Shown: positions 17,946-28,013 of the stretch, piece by piece
Layout of the letters: every line of letters begins with the position of its first letter
Position numbering within the stretch: the stretch's first letter is position 1
DNA from: Ramicandelaber brevisporus
Lineage: Eukaryota > Kickxellomycota > Ramicandelaberales > Ramicandelaberaceae
Direction: 5' to 3'
Length of the DNA stretch: 49,737 nt
Assembly: GCA_025201865.1 (NCBI GenBank)
Contig: MU602722.1
Coordinates: forward strand, 8,587 to 58,323
The notes under the pieces: model-generated
What the model was told of the DNA's origin: nothing
The model's database searches: none
Seen by the model: only the letters and a program-made list of their open reading frames with translations
Translations under genes and position numbers: made by a program

Positions 17946-20900
17946 TTAGAGCCATTCCTTGAAACGACGCACATAAATGTACTTGACAATTTGCGCAAGG
18001 ACCATGTACAAAAAGACGAATAGCACAAAGAAGCCGTAGAAGGTCTGTGGCGGGTGCACCATTTCCAGCCCATCCTTGCCCAGCGGCGTGTAGGGGAGTG
18101 AAATACCAATGGCCAAAATCACCAAGCTCATCACACATACCTGCCATGAGGCACGGCTCTGAACAAATGGAATCTTGGGTGTGCGAATAATGTGCACAAT
18201 GATGGTCTGTGTTACGAAACCAAGCGTGAACCAGCTCGAACGCAGAATGGGGGCATCTTGTTCGGTGCGAACACCATAGTAGAACCACATGAGCAAAAAC
18301 GTGGAGATGTCAAAGACGGAGGATGTTGGACCGAGACAGGCCATAAAGCGAACAATGGAGCCAGCGTCCCATGCACGGGGCTTGAGCAGGTACTCCTCGT
18401 CCATGTGGTCCCATGGAATGGCAAGCTGGCTAATGTCGTACAGCAGGTTCTGGGCAAGCAGTTGCATGGCGGTCATCGGGGTGAACGGCAGCCAGGCAGC
18501 GGCGACGAGCATTGAGAAGACGTTGCCAAAGTTGGACGAGGCGGTCATCTTGATGTACTTGATGGTGTTGCCGTGAGTGGTGCGACCGCGACGAATGGCC
18601 CAGGAAATGACAGCAAGCGACTTCTCAGTCAAGATGACATCGGCGGCATCTTTGGCAATAGCAGTGCCGGTCTCGACAGAAATGCCAACATCAGCGCCGC
18701 GGAGTGCCAGAGCGTCGTTGATACCATCGCCGAGGAAGCCAACCGTGCGGCCTTGAGCCTGCAACTCCTTGACAACTTCGAGCTTCTGTGTGGGAGTCAA
18801 CTTGGCCAGCACGGTGGCAGAGCGAACGGCTTCGGCAAACTCGCCACGCTTCATTGCTTCGAGCTGTGGGCCGGTGACCATGACAGTGGTATCGATGCCA
18901 ACATCACGGCAGACACGCTGGGCAATAGTCAAGCTGTCGCCAGTCAACACCTTGATGGCAACGCCGAGCTTGGCAAAGTCTTGGATAGCCGGTGCAGCAG
19001 ATTCCTTGGGCGGATCGAGGAAAGCAACCATGCCGTGGAACACCATGTCGGATTCGTCGCTAATCTTGAGGCCAGGATCAGTGGTGATTGGATCATCGAC
19101 AGCAGAATGGAGAACCTTGGTTGCAATGGCGAGCACACGCATACCGTCAGCGTTCAGGTTGTGTGAATGCTCCAGAATGGCAGCACGAGTCTCATCAGCC
19201 AGCGGCGCAGTAGGCTGAGCGGTGTCGTAGATGGTGTAGCCAGACGATGCAATAAACGAGCATTGCGCCAATGTATCCTCAAGAGCACCTTTGCACACCA
19301 GCATCAAGGATGATCCAGTACGGTTGTTGCCAGCAGATTTGTGCTTGTGTTGGAGTGCAATCGACACGCGACGGCGGGTAAAATCAAATGGGATCTCATC
19401 AACCTTGACCCACATCTGCTCCAGTGCACCGACGGTCACCATCTTGGATTCTTCGCAGCTTACGTCATTAATCTCAACATCCACCTTGTTGTATAGCAAA
19501 GCACGCTCATCAGCCGCACGAATTATGGCGTCATCCAACGCATTGCGCATGCCGGATTGCATGGCAGCATTGATGAACGCCAGGTGCAAAATATCGCCAA
19601 CCTTGCGTTCGGTCAACTGAGCGTCACGAATGGCGGCCAAGTCAACCTGGTCTTGAGTCAGCGTGCCAGTCTTGTCGGAGCAAACCACGTCCATTGCTCC
19701 AAGGTTCTGGATCGCATCCAGGCGCTTAACGATGGTCTTACGCTTGACAAGCTGCACTGCACCAAGTGCCAAATTGGCATTGAGGATCATGGGCAGCATC
19801 TCCGGAACCAGACCGACAGCAACAGCAATTCCAAAGAGAGCAGCATCACGCCAAGCCTTGGTGGTGACACCGTTGAGAACAATGACGATTGGAACCATAA
19901 CGAGCATAAAGCCAGAGAGAATCAATGAGACACGGCGAATGCCAAGCTGGAAGGCATTGACAGGCTGCTGACGAGCGAGACTGGCAGCAATGGACGACAT
20001 GTATGTCTGGTTGCCGGTGGAGATGACAATGCCGCGACCGTAGCCAGAGACGACATTGGTGCCCATGATGACGACGTTTGGATGGTCAAGCAAACCAGTC
20101 GAGGAGTCGGATGGAGCAGCGGTAGCATCACCAGTAGTAGCATCGACATCGGTATCAGTCACAACTTCAATCTCAGACGTGGATTCTGGGACTGGCTTGT
20201 CGGCATTAAAAGCGGCATCCTTCTCAACGGGAATGACTTCGCCAGTGAGTGCAGACTGCGAAATGAGCAAATCGCGAGACTCAATCAGGCGGATGTCAGC
20301 AGGCACAGAGCTACCAGCAGACAGAACAACCACATCACCAGGAACCACCTCTTCTACTGGAATCTCGACAATGTATCCCTCAGCATTGCCAGAACCCGGA
20401 CCCTCATATGGCTGAGACACATCACCTTTGCCACCACCAGTGACAACCAAGTCAGGCGTGATAGACATCATCGATTCTTCATCGGCAGCAATTGGCGAGT
20501 ATTGACGAGACACCTTACGGTGCAATCCCTGGTCCTTGAAATCGCCATCCACCTTGCTCGATGGGGTACGAGTACGAAGCACCTTTGTGGTGGCCTTGAT
20601 CATGTCACGCAAACGCGCCACCGCTACAGTCGAGCGCATTTCTTGGTAATAGCGCATGCCGGCACTCAGGGCAATCATGGCCAGCATCATTCCAAACGTC
20701 TTCTTGTCACCGGTAGCAATGCTGATAGCACCGAGCACCAACAACAAAATGTTGAATGGATGCACAATTGCCTGGAACAGGAGCATGTACCAGGATGGAG
20801 GCTTGACGGAATCGAGCTTGTTAGGGCCGTAGATGCGACGACGGCGTTCGGCCTCTTCAAGGGTGAGTCCGGTTACGGTTGAGGCGGAAAGTAAAGCGGG

Positions 20901-21179
20901 ATCAAGAGCACTGGCAGAGAGCGGGACGCCAGCTGGTGACAGGTTGGTGGAGCCGGGTGGAGTGATATGGTAGCACTCAGAGATGGTGGTAGACAGCGGC
21001 GACTGCGCGTAATGGGCAATGCGCGCAGCAATTTCCTTGGAACGGACATACTCATCATCAGTCATGCCGGATGAAGCAGCAGAGCCGGAGCCATTGCCGC
21101 CGCCACCGCCGCCATCGCGGGTCAGGCCAAAGAAGCGCTTGAAGCGAGATGAGATACCGCCGTCGTGGAACACTGGCAT
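17946..21179 (-). CDS. MgtA/MgtB-type (P3B) magnesium-translocating P-type ATPase
   Basis: P3B ATPases, best known from bacterial MgtA/MgtB, move Mg2+ into the cytoplasm using ATP. All P-type motifs are present: TGE at 312-314 in the actuator domain, the phosphorylated Asp502 in DKTGT, TGD at 747-749, and GDGIND at 817-822. The membrane motif GLVPEMLP (about 456-463) and the C-terminal segment with NLLYDISQLAIPWD are typical of the MgtA group rather than of Ca2+ or H+ pumps. At 1077 residues it is longer than bacterial MgtA (about 900). The extra length is an N-terminal extension with a Gly run, an insertion at about 200-270 before the actuator core, and another at about 320-365. It could sit in the plasma membrane or an organelle. 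It converges with the F-box-like gene, 242 bases between stops. Confidence 0.93.
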   Translation of the reverse strand: MPVFHDGGISSRFKRFFGLTRDGGGGGGNGSGSAASSGMTDDEYVRSKEIAARIAHYAQSPLSTTISECYHITPPGSTNLSPAGVPLSASALDPALLSASTVTGLTLEEAERRRRIYGPNKLDSVKPPSWYMLLFQAIVHPFNILLLVLGAISIATGDKKTFGMMLAMIALSAGMRYYQEMRSTVAVARLRDMIKATTKVLRTRTPSSKVDGDFKDQGLHRKVSRQYSPIAADEESMMSITPDLVVTGGGKGDVSQPYEGPGSGNAEGYIVEIPVEEVVPGDVVVLSAGSSVPADIRLIESRDLLISQSALTGEVIPVEKDAAFNADKPVPESTSEIEVVTDTDVDATTGDATAAPSDSSTGLLDHPNVVIMGTNVVSGYGRGIVISTGNQTYMSSIAASLARQQPVNAFQLGIRRVSLILSGFMLVMVPIVIVLNGVTTKAWRDAALFGIAVAVGLVPEMLPMILNANLALGAVQLVKRKTIVKRLDAIQNLGAMDVVCSDKTGTLTQDQVDLAAIRDAQLTERKVGDILHLAFINAAMQSGMRNALDDAIIRAADERALLYNKVDVEINDVSCEESKMVTVGALEQMWVKVDEIPFDFTRRRVSIALQHKHKSAGNNRTGSSLMLVCKGALEDTLAQCSFIASSGYTIYDTAQPTAPLADETRAAILEHSHNLNADGMRVLAIATKVLHSAVDDPITTDPGLKISDESDMVFHGMVAFLDPPKESAAPAIQDFAKLGVAIKVLTGDSLTIAQRVCRDVGIDTTVMVTGPQLEAMKRGEFAEAVRSATVLAKLTPTQKLEVVKELQAQGRTVGFLGDGINDALALRGADVGISVETGTAIAKDAADVILTEKSLAVISWAIRRGRTTHGNTIKYIKMTASSNFGNVFSMLVAAAWLPFTPMTAMQLLAQNLLYDISQLAIPWDHMDEEYLLKPRAWDAGSIVRFMACLGPTSSVFDISTFLLMWFYYGVRTEQDAPILRSSWFTLGFVTQTIIVHIIRTPKIPFVQSRASWQVCVMSLVILAIGISLPYTPLGKDGLEMVHPPQTFYGFFVLFVFLYMVLAQIVKYIYVRRFKEWL

Positions 21180-22109
21180 TTTTTAGACAACGAAGAGGGA
21201 CAGGACGAAGAGGGTGTGGAGTTGGAGTTCGGTGGATGTGTGGTGTTTAGGGGTTGAGTTCGGTAGCGCGTGCGAAGATGCCCATGAAGAAGACTGCAAG
21301 GCAGTTGACCATCAATGTATGACTTTTTTGAGGAGAAGAGGTGGGTAGGATACGTCTGTGGACGTGCGGTTGTATGAGAGTAATGGATTGCTTGGTCACA
21401 GAATATAGTAGTGAGCAAGCAATGGTTTGTGTCGCTGGAGGCAAAAGCTGAGCACTGTGTCTTTAGCTGTCAAAAAAGGTGAGAGCAAAGAACGTCTGTA
21501 GCGGGGGGGGGAGAGAAGTAATCGAAGATGGAGAGAACGACAACTCGGGAAGCATGCGGCGGCGAAGGCACTGTGGCGAGTTCTATTTAAGTTACTACAA
21601 CTCGTCACACCACTCCCCCCACTCTCAGTTAAATTGATGGAATGTCCGAGTTGATACATACGCACAACCCTGTAACTTGTTTGGTCAGCTCAGACCATGA
21701 TTATCACCGCAAATGAAACGAGACGGGAGATAGGAGGGGGCAACGTAGTAACGTGACTGCGGTAGAGTATACGAATTCGAAGGAAGATCCGTACCCACCC
21801 ACTGCATACGATTCGACCACTGTGGATGAGAATTTTAATCGATTGCACGAAAAAGTGTTGAGAGCACACAGACCAGTTTAATAATGGTCTGTGCGAGTCT
21901 ATTTAAAACAGGAATTGTGCCCAAGAGGAAGCTTGTTAAATGAGTGTTGATTCAAAAGGATATTCGAGGCTTTCTAAAAAAAAAATGTTGACTGAACAAC
22001 GAATACGAGGCTTTTTGAACAAACACTAACTGAAAAGAAAACGAATACGAGGCTTTATGGAAGTGGTGAGCTGCAGTGCGGAGTTATTTGCAACTGGGGA
22101 GGCTTTGCA
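21180..22109. other. Intergenic between ATPase and secreted-peptide genes
   Basis: This stretch holds the ATPase promoter, a G run near 21501-21510, and four copies of a GAGGCTTT-centred motif (see the repeat entry). No gene is supported. Confidence 0.55.
21963..22106 (+). repeat. GAGGCTTT motif repeated four times upstream of the peptide genes
   Basis: Copies lie at about 21965-21973, 22007-22014, 22049-22056 and 22099-22106. The second and third share a longer core, AATACGAGGCTTT, 42 bases apart. A further GAGGCTTTGCAGGT occurs near 23979 before the next gene. They may be regulatory sites or a decayed tandem repeat. Confidence 0.45.
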
Positions 22110-22170
22110 GGTGTTCACTGTTACAAGATTCTACTGGTGAGTGGTTGTGAATAGCAAAGCAAGGGAATGA

Positions 22171-22177
22171 ATATAAG
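22171..22177 (+). promoter_or_regulatory. TATA-like box of peptide gene copy 1
   Basis: ATATAAG lies about 140 bases before the peptide ATG, followed by a CT-rich leader. The identical box of copy 2 is at 23086-23092. Confidence 0.45.
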
Positions 22178-22314
22178 ACTGCGTCGATTTGCCGTTCATT
22201 CACGACCTCGTTCTCTTCTTTCCAGCTTTTGCACTCACACACACACAGTCTCTCTCTCGCTCACTCTCGCACATATCTTTTCAGCATCGGTTGCATACTC
22301 GCATATCCACAGCA

Positions 22315-22453
22315 ATGAAGTTCACTGCATTCTTCCTCCTGTTCGCTATGCTCATGATGAGCCTGTTCAACATCGATATGGTTGACGCTCGCCCAAACCC
22401 ACTTCCTGTTCCTGCTCCGGTTCCAATTCCAAAAGCCTATGCTAAGGCACGTC
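22315..22453 (+). CDS. Small secreted cationic peptide, copy 1 (cut by assembly gap)
   Basis: The first 46 codons are identical in protein sequence to copy 2 at 23230. The frame runs into the N gap at 22454, so the C-terminal third is unseen. The gene may be intact, and the break is a sequencing gap, not a mutation. Function and features are as described for copy 2. Confidence 0.75.
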
Positions 22454-23024
22454 NNNNNNNNNNNNNNNNNNNNNNNNNNNNNNNNNNNNNNNNNNNNNNN
22501 NNNNNNNNNNNNNNNNNNNNNNNNNNNNNNNNNNNNNNNNNNNNNNNNNNNNNNNNNNNNNNNNNNNNNNNNNNNNNNNNNNNNNNNNNNNNNNNNNNNN
22601 NNNNNNNNNNNNNNNNNNNNNNNNNNNNNNNNNNNNNNNNNNNNNNNNNNNNNNNNNNNNNNNNNNNNNNNNNNNNNNNNNNNNNNNNNNNNNNNNNNNN
22701 NNNNNNNNNNNNNNNNNNNNNNNNNNNNNNNNNNNNNNNNNNNNNNNNNNNNNNNNNNNNNNNNNNNNNNNNNNNNNNNNNNNNNNNNNNNNNNNNNNNN
22801 NNNNNNNNNNNNNNNNNNNNNNNNNNNNNNNNNNNNNNNNNNNNNNNNNNNNNNNNNNNNNNNNNNNNNNNNNNNNNNNNNNNNNNNNNNNNNNNNNNNN
22901 NNNNNNNNNNNNNNNNNNNNNNNNNNNNNNNNNNNNNNNNNNNNNNNNNNNNNNNNNNNNNNNNNNNNNNNNNNNNNNNNNNNNNNNNNNNNNNNNNNNN
23001 NNNNNNNNNNNNNNNNNNNNNNNN
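22454..23024. other. Assembly gap, 571 N
   Basis: A run of N. It lies inside a tandem duplication, which probably caused the assembly to fail here. Confidence 1.
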
Positions 23025-23229
23025 GGTGTTCACTGTTACAAGATTCTACTGGTGAGTGGTTGTGAATAGCAAAGCAAGGGAATGAATATAAGACTGCGTC
23101 GATTTGCCGTTCATTCACGACCTCGTTCTCTTCTTTCCAGCTTTTGCACTCACACACACACAGTCTCTCTCTCGCTCACTCTCGCACATATCTTTTCAGC
23201 ATCGTTTGCATACTCGCATATCCACAGCA

Positions 23230-23442
23230 ATGAAGTTCACTGCATTCTTCCTCCTGTTCGCTATGCTCATGATGAGCCTGTTCAACATCGATATGGTTGA
23301 CGCTCGCCCAAACCCACTTCCTGTTCCTGCTCCGGTTCCAATTCCAAAAGCCTATGCTAAGGCACGTCCTCTATTCTTCCTCGGTCCCCACATTGCCGGT
23401 GCAATTGCCGCAGCACGGATTGCTGCAATGCGTAAGCAGTAA
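23230..23442 (+). CDS. Small secreted cationic peptide, copy 2 (70 residues)
   Basis: I know no named family for it. The precursor starts MKFTAFFLLFAMLMMSLF, a clear signal peptide with a likely cut after Ala25. The remaining 45 residues hold seven Lys/Arg and no Asp/Glu. First comes a Pro-Val-Pro-rich stretch (residues 27-39), then Lys/Arg sites at 44-46, then a tail with FFLGPHIAGAIAAARIAAMRKQ-like composition rich in Ala, Gly and Ile that could form an amphipathic helix. This plan resembles secreted antimicrobial or membrane-active peptides, but that is inference. The upstream TATA box, CT-rich leader and ATG context are intact, so the gene looks expressed. Confidence 0.75.
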   Translation: MKFTAFFLLFAMLMMSLFNIDMVDARPNPLPVPAPVPIPKAYAKARPLFFLGPHIAGAIAAARIAAMRKQ

Positions 23443-24039
23443 ACAATCATCTTGTCATGCATAAAACAAAACATTTGCCATAACATTACTTTGCATTCTT
23501 TGACACTCTGCACTCACTTTCTTGCCATCTACTTTCTTTCCCCTTCACTGCATTCACTTTCTCTACATTCTGCATATTTACTTTTTTACTCTGCACTAAC
23601 TGTTTCTCACTTGTCTCTCCTCCATTCGATATGCACCAACAAGTTTAAAGTCAATGATGATGAATAAATCGACTAGTTAGAGAAAGCTCAGTGATCACAA
23701 CTGTGACCCGATCCACTTACGAACCATCAAATGGGTCATGGACACGCGTCCTAATGATGAAGGAGATCGCTCGCTTTCACCCATCTCTTTCACAGTTATT
23801 GCTGCGGAGTTTTGGAATCACGGTTGACTATTCCAATACCAGTGGAACTGTTGATGTGCAACGTGTCAAAAACAAAAACAATAATAACAAAGACTGCATC
23901 ATTCTCTCATCTCTCTCTCTCTATCTCTCTTGGATACACTCTATCGTGCCAGCAAGGCATGTCACTGTTTTGAATTTGAGGCTTTGCAGGTTGTATATCA
24001 GCCTGTCTGCTCTGCTTGCTCTCCTTCGATCTCGTATCA
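23443..24039. other. Intergenic after the secreted peptide
   Basis: The left half, to about 23660, is strongly CT-rich and reads like a 3' untranslated region with a TGATGATGAATAAA-type end near 23655. The right half leads to the next gene and includes a single GAGGCTTTGCAGG motif. No further gene is supported. Confidence 0.5.
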
Positions 24040-25017
24040 ATGCCACTAATAACAGAAATCGAACAAGAAACTAACATGACACATTCCGACGAATCCGCCG
24101 TTGAAGTTCAGCCAATGCCGTCCAAGTCGCCAAGCAATAATGATCAGAGCAGTAGCGACAGTATCAACAACAGCAACTCTACTGAACCGGTCAACACCAT
24201 ATCACTCGCTCAAAATGACTTACTGGCATTGCCTGTTACTGCCATCAATCGTCTCTGGCTATTTCTTCCAACTGTTGCTGTGGCTGTTATTGCAACTCTA
24301 CTCACATTGCGCATTGTCGATCCACTCAAGTCCCACCCTACAATTCCTCGCACCGTGCCGTGCCCCAGTGAACCATCTCTTTATCCATACTTTGGCAATT
24401 CAACTAGGGATGTCGAACTCACAGAGGCTTGGTCAATTCTCACTGAAAAGCCCTCTGACTGCTTAGCCGAAGACATCTGCGGAACAATGGCCAACCAAAA
24501 AAGAATTTTTTATGATGACTTTGCAGTGCCACAGTCTATGGGTGGTGACGTAGCGTCGCATCCAAAGTTGCTCATTCGTGCTGGTGGCCAAATGCGCTCG
24601 CGCATTCGCATCACTACAGAGCCTGTCAATACCAACAATACCATTACTCATGACAGTGACCCTCGGGCCATTACTGTCAAGTATTCGGTTATGTATGACG
24701 CACGAGAAAACGATTATATTGAACATCATACAGTCGATGATGAAGAGACTAAAATGATCTGGCTCAACAGTGGTGGTACTGGCGAGGGGCGTTACAACTT
24801 CCAGCGCCACGGAGATCCCTATTCTAAAAGAGCATCCTGGTGTGCGTATGCAAATATTAAGGTGGCTATTCCAGAGTATGATCTCAACGATGGCAAAGCG
24901 CGCTTTAGGATGTTTATCGCAGCAACCAAGCCACATATTGTAGTTGATGACAGTGCTAGACCGTACATTAACTCGATCAATGTCGTCGAGCCATTACAGC
25001 GCCTGATTACAGAATAG
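24040..25017 (+). CDS. Single-pass membrane protein of unknown function
   Basis: I do not recognise this protein. It has a Ser/Asn/Glu-rich N-terminus of about 65 residues, one hydrophobic segment (about residues 72-95, LFLPTVAVAVIATLLTL), and then about 225 residues with several Cys and possible N-glycosylation sites (such as NST, NNT). That fits a type II membrane protein with its C-terminal domain in the ER lumen or outside the cell. The start is the ATG at 24040; the ATG at 24076, with A at -3, is a good alternative. No repeats or known motifs are seen. Confidence 0.8.
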   Translation: MPLITEIEQETNMTHSDESAVEVQPMPSKSPSNNDQSSSDSINNSNSTEPVNTISLAQNDLLALPVTAINRLWLFLPTVAVAVIATLLTLRIVDPLKSHPTIPRTVPCPSEPSLYPYFGNSTRDVELTEAWSILTEKPSDCLAEDICGTMANQKRIFYDDFAVPQSMGGDVASHPKLLIRAGGQMRSRIRITTEPVNTNNTITHDSDPRAITVKYSVMYDARENDYIEHHTVDDEETKMIWLNSGGTGEGRYNFQRHGDPYSKRASWCAYANIKVAIPEYDLNDGKARFRMFIAATKPHIVVDDSARPYINSINVVEPLQRLITE

Positions 25018-25376: not shown

Positions 25377-28013
25377 TTATTGCTGAGTTGGCACTGGACT
25401 TCCATGCCACGATTGAATCAGCGTTTTCACAAAGGACTGCTCGGCCGTAGTGTTCGCAAAAATGTCAGCCTTGTTCTCAGCTGGACATCTCAAGTACGAT
25501 GGTGCGAATACAACAGCCAGATTCGACACGTTCATCTTGGTTTGCACAACATTCTCAGGCCGAGCGAGTACCTGCAAGAACTGAGTCACATAATCAACAA
25601 CACGCAATCGTATGCCTTCCAGCCGTTTGATAACAGTGACTACATGCTTCGAATTGGCCGCCAATGAGATGCTGTCATTATACCACTCGGTTGGAATCAA
25701 CGGTTCAGCCATCTCACGGAACCACGCCTTGAGCAAAGAGGCGGGCACGTTTGGATCCTTGACGCCAGCCAAGTCATACTTGCCCTCGTCGATACGAGTC
25801 CGCAACGCCGTGACCAAGCTAACATCGCCAGGAATGCGGAAGATACCCTCAGTGCGGTGGCCATTGAGCATCAGCACGGCAGTTACCAAGAATGACAAGA
25901 CGCGTGGCACACCAAGTTCTTCGTCGGGAACACTGGGCATCCGCATCAACAGATCCAGCGACTCGCCAAACACGGAGAGAGCCAATGGAGAATTGAATGC
26001 ACGTTCAATCTCGCGAGTTGATGGAGATGCAGACTGTGGGCCGGTTGTGCAAATGCGCATCAATCGTGAGAAGGAAAACTGCGCACATTGATCAATCTGA
26101 TCGGTATACGTCTCAAAATGACGCTCGACAAAGTTTTTGAGATAGCACTCGAGTTCCTTTGATGGCGGGAATGCAGACGCAAACACGCACATCAATCTCC
26201 ACCCCTTGTGCGCACTCTGAGATGATGGATTGCTGCGCAGCTGTCGACAGAGCTGGCAGTACACTTCATCTCGCAGTGCAGGTGTCCTAATCGCAGTGCT
26301 CACCAACCACTCGATGCTCTGCCACAAACTCTGACCGGACCGCTGTGGTCTGTCGCCCATAACTGTCTGGATGACCACAAATGCCTTGACAGCATCCTTC
26401 TTCATTCCGCGTGGCAATGGAAGCAACGGTTGACGCATTGGCATCCACGTCCAAACCAGCAGCTTCTCAACAGGTACCTGGCGTCGGAGCAAAAACAAGC
26501 CCTGGGTGCGTCGTGCGTAATGTGATTCTGCAAACGATTCAAATGGAGTTTGACTAATGTCACGCTTCATCTCTTCCGTAACCGTGTATCGCTTCATTGC
26601 ACCGCGGGATGCCGATCGCTTGAGAGTTGATTCATCTGGAATCAAAATGTGGCGGCTTGCTGATGCCTTTCTGAGTGCCTGTTGCATCTGACCATCAGGA
26701 TTTGACGAGATTCCAGCTGATGTCATTGGTCGCTGTAGTTGAGGTGGCAGAAGTGGTGATTGTGGTGATTGTGGTAATTGCGACATAGCTGTAGCTGTAG
26801 CTGTAGCTGTGGCTGGGTTGACGTCGATATTGGCTGCTCTAACAAGTTGCATGGAAGGTCTGGAATTAACAGTCATATTTGTGGTAGTGGGACTGGCCTG
26901 TGATTGGGCTGAGTCATTAAATTGCGTCACTGAATGGCTAATAATGTTCCTGGTTGGAAGATGAGCGGCCGAGGCACTGCCAAATTTGGTTGATTTCGCA
27001 CTAATCGCTGCGGGCGTAGCTCTAGCCGGAAGACGTATATTTTCATCAGCTGTGAGAAGTTCACCGATTGTACGGGAATCTCCAAAGGCTGAATCCGACG
27101 CATTCAGCTGTGCTGTAATTAGCGGGCTGGCTGGACTCTGCGGCTCTAGCGGTGGTGTCATGAGGGCAGATGCATCAATTTGGTGACGTGCAACACCATT
27201 GCCATTTGTAACTGCAGTGAGTTGCTGCTGCTGGCCGCTGCCCGGTAAAGAAGCCGTTGAGCTGGTAATTGGGCTTAGCGGACCAGTAAATGTCGATGCT
27301 GGCGTTGTGTTAATTGCCGCAACCTTTGTATCTGGCATAGATGGAGAGTGAGATAGCTTTCGTTTTTGTTGCTGTTGTTGCTGGTATTGGTGCTGTTGTT
27401 GGTGCTGTTTTTGTTGCTGTTGGTGCTGTTGTTGGTGCTGTTGTTGTTGCTGGAATGGCTGCGGCATGGTCTCACTGGAAGATGTTGCCGTAGATGGATC
27501 ACTTGGCACTGCAACAGTTGATGAAGCCGATGCCGAAGCAGATAACGAAGGAAGAAGTGGCATCACGCTGTTGCCACCACCACCACCGCTGGCACCACCG
27601 CCGCCGCTGCCGCTGCCGCCGCCATTGCTTACACTAGTATCCAGACCAATTGAGCCGGGTACGTTTGGGAGCGATGCAAGCAACTCACCAGCCAACATGA
27701 CAGATGCTCTCGATGACACCAGCATCGACATGTGATTGCCCAGCACGGATCGCTGTAGAGCATGCAGAGGAACAATAACAACGTCTGGCGAGTCTGGCGC
27801 AACCCACGTCGTATCGCCCGTAAGAGTGTTGTAGTAGTAAGGAAGTTCGTGGGTTTCGTCAAACAGCTCCCAGTACTCGCCAGCCGGGTTGCGTGGTTTG
27901 ACGGGGCCGGTTATCGGTCGCAGCCAGCTGCACTCGCCAGTAGCCAGGTTCGCAAACACTTGCCTGCCGCTGTCGGGATCTGCAAGTTCGATCCACTCAT
28001 CTCGAAGCGACAT
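25377..28013 (-). CDS. WW-WW-MyTH4-RhoGAP protein (ARHGAP39/Vilse-like architecture)
   Basis: RhoGAPs switch off Rho/Rac/Cdc42 GTPases, and MyTH4 domains bind microtubules or cargo. Domains in order: WW1 (Trp7 and Trp30), WW2 (Trp48 and Trp70), a long disordered region with a Gly run and a Gln/His-rich tract (about residues 185-220, encoded at about 27355-27455), MyTH4 (about 495-655, with the DEVYCQLCRQL motif), and RhoGAP (about 685-870) with its arginine finger Arg726 in GIFRIPG. This order matches animal ARHGAP39 (Vilse/CrossGAP), so the role is probably in cytoskeleton control and cell polarity. At 878 residues it is slightly shorter than the animal protein. The ATG at 28013 begins just before WW1. 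Confidence 0.94.
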   Translation of the reverse strand: MSLRDEWIELADPDSGRQVFANLATGECSWLRPITGPVKPRNPAGEYWELFDETHELPYYYNTLTGDTTWVAPDSPDVVIVPLHALQRSVLGNHMSMLVSSRASVMLAGELLASLPNVPGSIGLDTSVSNGGGSGSGGGGASGGGGGNSVMPLLPSLSASASASSTVAVPSDPSTATSSSETMPQPFQQQQQHQQQHQQQQKQHQQQHQYQQQQQQKRKLSHSPSMPDTKVAAINTTPASTFTGPLSPITSSTASLPGSGQQQQLTAVTNGNGVARHQIDASALMTPPLEPQSPASPLITAQLNASDSAFGDSRTIGELLTADENIRLPARATPAAISAKSTKFGSASAAHLPTRNIISHSVTQFNDSAQSQASPTTTNMTVNSRPSMQLVRAANIDVNPATATATATAMSQLPQSPQSPLLPPQLQRPMTSAGISSNPDGQMQQALRKASASRHILIPDESTLKRSASRGAMKRYTVTEEMKRDISQTPFESFAESHYARRTQGLFLLRRQVPVEKLLVWTWMPMRQPLLPLPRGMKKDAVKAFVVIQTVMGDRPQRSGQSLWQSIEWLVSTAIRTPALRDEVYCQLCRQLRSNPSSQSAHKGWRLMCVFASAFPPSKELECYLKNFVERHFETYTDQIDQCAQFSFSRLMRICTTGPQSASPSTREIERAFNSPLALSVFGESLDLLMRMPSVPDEELGVPRVLSFLVTAVLMLNGHRTEGIFRIPGDVSLVTALRTRIDEGKYDLAGVKDPNVPASLLKAWFREMAEPLIPTEWYNDSISLAANSKHVVTVIKRLEGIRLRVVDYVTQFLQVLARPENVVQTKMNVSNLAVVFAPSYLRCPAENKADIFANTTAEQSFVKTLIQSWHGSPVPTQQ

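Follow-up and report, generated by a model that had tools for sequence, protein, structure and literature searches.

The complete gene in a 49,737-nucleotide stretch of Ramicandelaber brevisporus DNA (hereafter the window) belongs to a gene family in which a signal-like leader is followed by a run of X-Pro and X-Ala dipeptides in unbroken phase, here termed the ladder, and by a mature part that changes faster than the regions preceding it. Comparison of the sequences puts at least 11 distinct genes of R. brevisporus in this family. We propose, with somewhat more confidence than doubt, that they constitute a prepro-peptide family that has expanded in this species, and that the ladder is trimmed by a dipeptidyl aminopeptidase, which would free a cationic peptide likely to act on membranes. 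Secretion, trimming and the nature of the trimming enzyme are inferred, and the membrane or antimicrobial action is the least certain step of the proposal. The coordinates of the features are collected in Table 1.

Table 1. Features of the window and of related loci in the same genome (positions without a locus prefix are those of the window).
Feature	Position	Strand	Basis or remark
Four copies of GAGGCTTT (21966, 22007, 22049, 22099), possible regulatory element	21966..22106	+	Motif count over the whole window
Left repeat copy: promoter, 5' leader, signal peptide and most of the pro-region	22110..22453	+	343/344 against 23025-23368; cut by the gap
TATA-like TATAAGA of the left copy	22172..22178	+	Motif position; right-copy counterpart 23087-23093 at the same offset
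Left-copy coding sequence, truncated, residues 1-46	22315..22453	+	Frame enters the gap
Assembly gap, 571 N	22454..23024		N run
Right copy: upstream region and 5' leader, from the gap edge	23025..23229	+	Aligned to C65, C149 and C229
25-codon signal-like peptide; cut predicted after VDA	23230..23304	+	(-3,-1) rule by eye; pooled pN 0.02
Pro-region, 11 dipeptides RP NP LP VP AP VP IP KA YA KA RP	23305..23370	+	Ladders in 12 other genes too
Mature peptide (predicted) of 23 residues, LFFLGPHIAGAIAAARIAAMRKQ; charge +3, neither acid nor Cys	23371..23439	+	Fastest-changing part, pooled pN 0.23
Stop codon and 3' region common to paralogues	23440..23667	+	Exact matches up to 47 nt, C65 and C149, within 23492-23667
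C174 tandem array	L062 955-3937 = G000:C174:17454-20436		Mature parts of 96-97 residues, +21 to +24, no acidic residue
C212 protein, 975 aa	L064 196-3123 (G000:C212)		Signal-like leader, ladder and amphipathic Lys-rich start
C2 protein, 374 aa	L066 1501-2625 (G000:C2)		Signal-like leader, ladder and amphipathic Lys-rich start

The gene family in Ramicandelaber brevisporus

The window gene (C56) is carried in full by the right-hand one of two near-identical blocks, where a complete reading frame of 70 residues at positions 23230-23442 encodes the protein MKFTAFFLLFAMLMMSLFNIDMVDARPNPLPVPAPVPIPKAYAKARPLFFLGPHIAGAIAAARIAAMRKQ. The sequence supports the original prediction of a gene for a cationic, acid-free and putatively secreted peptide, including its count of 7 Lys/Arg and no acidic residue over the 45 residues 26-70. 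The product envisaged there, a mature peptide of 45 residues with a charge of +7, is revised here: because the Pro-rich stretch is taken as a removable ladder, the predicted mature peptide shrinks to 23 residues with a charge of +3. The "Pro-rich linker" of that prediction is indeed rich in Pro, but is better understood as a removable X-Pro/X-Ala ladder in strict dipeptide phase. An AlphaFold model of the window protein (six sequences) places helices at residues 2-24, 40-43 and 51-68, with a mean pLDDT of 66.1 and a pTM of 0.28.

A DNA search of the genome to which the window belongs (G000, 17.9 Mb in 510 contigs) returned five places, namely the two copies in the window and the paralogues C65, C149 and C229, which are 85, 82 and 79% identical to the window gene, respectively. 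Protein searches of G000 add C98, C397 and three genes on C174; the latter form a tandem array with no N, their starts lying 1208 and 1364 bases apart. Two further members, P0005 and P0006, were added by the protein-database search; they are absent among the G000 matches, so that this assembly seems incomplete. The original prediction, made from the sequence alone, did not include three dispersed close paralogues, two database members and five more distant ones in the same genome. The 11 counted genes are C56, C65, C149, C229, C98, C397, the three on C174, P0005 and P0006; the truncated left copy in the window, P0007 (a shorter C229 record), P0008 (a C65 record with five residues fewer) and P0013 (a longer C98 record) were left out of the count.

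The family appears confined to this Kickxellomycete in the databases searched. The search of 5.8 billion proteins (E <= 1) returned six entries, the query and five others, all from R. brevisporus, and a profile search of the protein database (E <= 10), which scored 7994 candidates and covered only proteins with common short words and similar length, returned seven, the query and six from the same species. Neither search yielded a homologue outside R. brevisporus; both are word-based, and distant relatives can escape them. A protein search with P0012 retrieved nothing at E <= 1, not even the query, and is therefore uninformative. The 8 of the 11 family proteins that were scanned have no Pfam match, and the best PDB match (E 0.034) is a reaction-centre subunit. 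As to the statement of the original prediction that no fungal family is known to be like this one, no homologue outside the species came up in the protein searches, but the X-A/X-P signature is already known in fungal alpha-pheromone and KEP precursors. A pattern search allowing two mismatches gave 9 matches against 2 for the control; ladder scans revealed no ladder gene at its matches on C60, C72 and C118, nor at the weak matches on C127, C228, C75 and C245 (L016, L024, L048, L070, L060).

The dipeptide ladder and the mature part

In all 11 family genes, the signal-like leader ends in Ala and is followed by unbroken X-Pro/X-Ala dipeptides up to a hydrophobic start, and in each of them the run stops exactly at the conserved start [LAVIF][FI][FH]. 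This start reads [LAVI]FF in 9 of the 11 genes, LFH in P0005 and FIF in P0006. For instance, the ladder of C98 (RA DP EP NP IP IP KA FA KA RP QP) is followed by LFFLHPTIMAALARARNKN, that of C397 (RP IP HP EP TA KA AA RP) by IFFL..., and that of the first C174 gene (RP IP SP RP EP EP) by LFFL...; the first two of these are no simple repeats. Pro occupies none of the 110 first positions in the family. When the two long ladder proteins described below are included, the first positions of the 13 genes hold 15 residue types and never Pro (which the scan barred for C212 and C2), and the 132 second positions hold 105 Pro and 27 Ala. Ladder length ranges from 6 to 14 pairs in all 13 genes; as the ladder is defined as a run of X-[PA] pairs, its even length and its fitting second positions follow by definition. 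Permutation figures for the ladder phase range from 1.4e-6 to 1.5e-2 per family gene, and are optimistic because of this same definition and because related genes are no independent trials.

When 120,283 bases were scanned mechanically for ladders (1059 ATG-start readings), ten genes emerged, nine of them known and the tenth being C212, and the reversed-DNA control gave none; the sample, comprising the window and 21 partly overlapping loci picked for earlier matches, is non-random. Against the ladder stands the public record of C65 (P0008, 61 aa), in which five ladder residues are missing and the dipeptide phase is broken. The corresponding genomic frame (L003 1689-1889, 66 aa) is open with the phase intact and was used for the analysis; P0008 is probably a faulty gene model.

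Inspection by eye of the 13 ladders revealed no dibasic pair (KR, RR or KK). Among the eight short mature parts, three (C149, P0005 and C397) have KR near the C-terminus, and the long mature parts contain KK and other dibasic pairs within the core. Each of the 11 family precursors has, by eye, a single core and a single ladder, and none has Cys in the mature part, the length of which varies between 19 and 97 residues across the family.

One alternative explanation regards the ladder as a permanent Pro-rich spacer and the entire 45-residue, +7 peptide as the product, as had been assumed in the original prediction. X-Pro repeats are common spacers, the trimming enzyme was not located (see below), and VP/AP repeats can slip by 6-nt steps, which keeps the phase without any enzyme and accounts for the even lengths in the VP/AP part of the ladder. 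However, the phase is also kept in the non-repetitive ladders of C98 and C397, the second positions are filled by Pro or Ala, both of which are taken by DPP4/STE13-type enzymes, and no residue interrupts the ladder between the predicted signal cut and the hydrophobic start. On this evidence a fixed spacer appears unlikely, and we retain the removable ladder as the preferred interpretation.

The ladder plan extends to two much longer proteins, encoded on C212 and C2, the latter of which was found by a search with the C212 protein. Their ladders read AP IP EP EP EA SP EP RP and VP SP EP SP EP SP HP SP AP AP AP AP AP RP, respectively, and are followed by mature parts of 937 and 324 residues (by subtraction), in which Lys, Ala and Gly abound; these start with FKKLKKKLKKVGKVVGK in C212 and FIKKLGRGLKNKFKKIGRG in C2. 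Both mature parts open with a strongly amphipathic stretch of 24 residues, matched by 1 of 5000 shuffles in each case. In the C212 protein, a collagen-like stretch scores below the Pfam cut-off and the C-terminal part is rich in Pro and Glu; the C2 protein has no Pfam match. Cross-matches of these two proteins to the short genes have E-values of 0.09, 4.8 and 9.2. Judged from their sequences, C212 and C2 share the plan of the 11 family genes, and they are counted apart from them.

The possible amphipathic helix of the original prediction found no support in the window peptide, since shuffling its 23 residues gave an equal or higher hydrophobic moment in 4628 of 5000 trials. The same holds for the other members: none of ten family peptides (the 8 short ones and two from C174, C174c being left out) beat its shuffles at the 5% level, and an amphipathic helix of the short peptides is not supported by this comparison. 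Residues 10-33 of C174b were equalled or exceeded by 746 of 5000 shuffles. Basic residues are concentrated toward the C-terminal end, a bias matched by no more than 192 of 5000 shuffles in seven of the eight short members and by 483 in C397. Rough estimates from a gapped alignment of four paralogues (6 pairs) gave pooled pN values of 0.02 for the signal, 0.07 for the ladder and 0.23 for the mature part, and pooled pS values of 0.20, 0.30 and 0.51, respectively. This pN pattern agrees with a leader that stays fixed while the payload changes; with pN/pS below 1 in the mature part, it does not demonstrate positive selection.

Predicted processing, known precursors and possible function

In the proposed pathway, signal peptidase would cut the window precursor after the Ala at residue 25 and expose RP, whereupon a dipeptidyl aminopeptidase of the STE13/DPP4 type would strip the X-Pro/X-Ala pairs stepwise from the new N-terminus. 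Trimming would halt at the first pair whose second residue is neither Pro nor Ala, at [LAVIF][FI]; in the window protein the stop would be the Phe of LFFL. The predicted product is a short cationic peptide, 23 residues long in this case, with a hydrophobic start and a basic C-terminal end. The ladder may hold the peptide inactive or safe during export, as in melittin, and the free peptide would most likely act on the membranes of competitors.

X-Pro and X-Ala pairs at a free N-terminus are the substrates of DPP4/STE13-type enzymes: hymenopteran toxins are matured by DPP4 (PMC10591384), activation of cecropin and melittin needs dipeptide removal (PMC12882233), and STE13 removes XA/XP in fungal alpha-pheromones and KEPs (PMC9769878, PMC6339444). 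Membrane action is the least certain step, because the short peptides are not amphipathic and because IbinA and IbinB, members of a fly family with X-Pro leaders, are described as not killing bacteria (PMC12882233); an X-Pro leader alone is therefore no proof of an antimicrobial.

An exon-by-exon search for a luminal enzyme of the STE13/DPP4 type in G000, which, as noted, seems incomplete, found none. The single DPPIV_N match in this genome, on C30 (L006), is closest to DPP9/DPP8. DPP8 and DPP9 are cytosolic enzymes, and the L006 protein was set aside as the trimming enzyme because it is probably cytosolic as well. The remaining candidates were also rejected: C410 and C83 have a Peptidase_S9 match with no DPPIV_N and presumably represent other S9 branches, visual inspection assigns C167 and C431 to other alpha/beta hydrolases, and the match on C339 comes from a stray copy of the 3' portion of the DPP8/9-like gene on C30. 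This stray copy (L063, about 21805-22008) encodes the same C-terminal residues as the C30 gene. A search for S28 enzymes gave no signal in any control genome and is therefore uninformative. In a survey of 250 protein catalogues, at least one of KEX1, KEX2 and STE13 was missing in only 15 (Le Marquer et al., PMC6339444).

Among fungal systems, the closest likeness is to the precursors of alpha-pheromones and KEPs, which are secreted and from which X-Ala/X-Pro pairs are removed by a STE13-type dipeptidyl aminopeptidase, as is predicted for R. brevisporus. KEPs with the STE13 motif are known from Ascomycota, Basidiomycota and Glomeromycotina, and the X-A/X-P motif itself is accordingly not new in fungi (PMC7329392). 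In contrast to these precursors, the R. brevisporus ladder adjoins the signal peptide, no dibasic KEX2 site precedes the core, the short genes hold a single core, the cores are cationic and diverging, and the host is a Kickxellomycete. The short genes are not KEPs, because their cores are not repeated and are not preceded by a KEX2 site.

The first positions of hymenopteran toxin ladders are mainly Glu, whereas those of R. brevisporus are rich in Arg, Val, Ala and Lys, and the short cores are not amphipathic by hydrophobic moment. Word-based protein searches found no sequence homology to hymenopteran or dipteran families. The likeness lies in the plan: melittin, mastoparan and other hymenopteran toxins combine a signal peptide, a Pro-rich pro-region processed by DPP4 and a single short core (PMC10591384), and comparable processing is predicted here. 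Insect immune peptides such as cecropin, drosocin and Mibin also have X-Pro pairs after the signal cut, although Mibin is described with one to three pairs (PMC12882233), compared with 6 to 14 in R. brevisporus. By analogy, the R. brevisporus genes would work in plan like the DPP4-activated insect precursors.

Candidalysin and copsin have membrane or antimicrobial action. Candidalysin and the copsin of Coprinopsis, the latter explicitly called antimicrobial, resemble the R. brevisporus products in being secreted fungal peptides; they are, however, cut by KEX2 (PMC9769878), whereas in the R. brevisporus precursors no KEX2 site precedes the core, and all 11 mature parts lack Cys. In the open-licence literature, we found no description of a ladder placed directly after the signal peptide in a large, diverging family of cationic single cores.

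The peptides could also be self-signals, that is, hormones resembling alpha-pheromones, instead of weapons. Within a species, pheromones are as a rule few and conserved, which speaks against this possibility, as do the presence of at least 11 diverging paralogues in one species, the spread of mature parts from 19 to 97 residues and the lack of a KEX2 site before the core. In its favor, fungal leaders of the STE13 type have mostly been linked to pheromones, and KEPs with a STE13 signature have been called good peptide-hormone candidates (Le Marquer et al. 2019, PMC6339444). On balance we regard a signaling role as improbable, and the release of cationic peptides directed at other organisms as the preferred reading.

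If the ladder is trimmed as predicted, then dipeptide "ticketing" of secreted cationic peptides would operate without KEX2 in a fungus, much as it does in insects. A bolder interpretation, which we put forward only tentatively and consider more doubtful than the processing scheme itself, is that an arsenal of cationic peptides and proteins activated by a dipeptidyl aminopeptidase (with mature parts of 19 to about 940 residues) arose without KEX2, and independently of insects, in an early-diverging fungus; a fixed leader would carry a fast-changing payload, and one enzyme would activate the entire set during or after secretion. Surveys that require KEX2 sites and repeats, as in the definition given in PMC6339444, are not expected to detect this ladder class. 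A signal cut, an unbroken X-P/X-A run and a hydrophobic core start together form a searchable signature for secreted bioactive peptides in early-diverging fungi.

The repeated block, upstream elements and neighbouring genes

The near-identity that had been reported for the promoter, leader and signal-peptide block of the window (99.7% over 344 bases) was confirmed, 343 of the 344 bases being identical between 22110-22453 and 23025-23368 within the window. The sole mismatch is G at 22290 against T at 23205, and the three aligned paralogues C65, C149 and C229 have T at the matching position. The starts of the two blocks are 915 bases apart, and the N run between them is the only one in the window. 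The match opens with the base at which the right contig starts and closes with the one at which the left contig stops, so that its edges are the gap edges; the upstream region lies on the left contig and the downstream region on the right one. The reading frame of the left copy meets the gap after codon 46, the left contig ending 2 nt before the pro/mature junction. The blocks of the proposed recent tandem duplication are thus present in a pair, but a real duplication is not established, the mature part of the left copy being unseen; because the match edges coincide with the gap edges, as in unmerged overlapping contig ends, a duplication is not callable from this assembly.

Two readings of the repeat appear equally credible, and for each of them we stop a little short of calling it probable. 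According to the first, the repeat is an assembly artefact, in which the two contig ends overlap because they carry a single gene (e.g., two alleles with one SNP) and were scaffolded next to each other. The exact span of the match between the two contig ends and the division of upstream and downstream regions between the contigs are as expected for such an event, and for three out of four vertebrate assemblies Kelley and Salzberg (PMC2864568) considered most overlaps between neighbouring contigs to be false (5,698 of 5,947 in chicken, 13,159 of 13,571 in chimpanzee and 1,094 of 1,366 in cow, against 8 of 22 in dog). On the other hand, false duplications above 99.5% identity are described in the same study as few, compared with 99.7% here. 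The gap size of 571 is positive and no round filler value, the left contig stops just short of the junction at which family members diverge, and the C174 array shows that related genes do occur in a gap-free tandem of three.

According to the second reading, the left block belongs to a real neighbour copy that has the promoter, signal and pro-region in common with the right one and encodes a different mature peptide, concealed by the gap. The next column after the left contig end that varies among C56, C65, C149 and C229 is 23370, 2 nt further on, and the C174 array provides a precedent for tandem copies; yet no part of a second mature sequence is visible, and the coincidence of contig end and junction was spotted post hoc. 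The mature part of any second copy must sit inside the gap, and the further copies suggested in the original prediction may still lie there too. The gap at 22454-23024 is also a caution against gene-copy counts taken from contig ends.

Upstream of the genes, two candidate elements recur in part of the family. The motif GAGGCTTT has 5 sites on the plus strand of the window and none on the minus strand; four of them, spaced by 41-50 bases, fall within about 140 bases upstream of the left copy, and the fifth is at 23978. A single gene-strand site precedes the ATG of C65 (-298), C149 (-299), C229 (-291) and C98 (-321), and none was present in the 790-1000 upstream bases of C397 and of all three C174 genes; one site on the opposite strand was found in each of C149 (-412) and C174b (-399). 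The TATA-like TATAAGA is located at -143, -127, -129 and -121 from the ATG in C56, C65, C149 and C229, respectively, and was not found in the upstream stretches of C98, C397 and C174. No 7-mer is common to the upstream regions of all subgroups. Among the close paralogues, the region 23025..23229 of the right copy is conserved at 159 of 189 aligned bases in C65, 158 of 191 in C149 and 153 of 183 in C229.

The neighbours of the gene in the window are ordinary and include a P-type cation ATPase (17946-21179), a 325-aa protein with no Pfam match (24040-25017) and a WW-MyTH4-RhoGAP protein (25377-28013). Near the C397 gene (L015 2384+) lies another small frame, MKIVHFVAAVTVLFAAAVSA..., which looks secreted and is rich in Cys (six, counted by eye).
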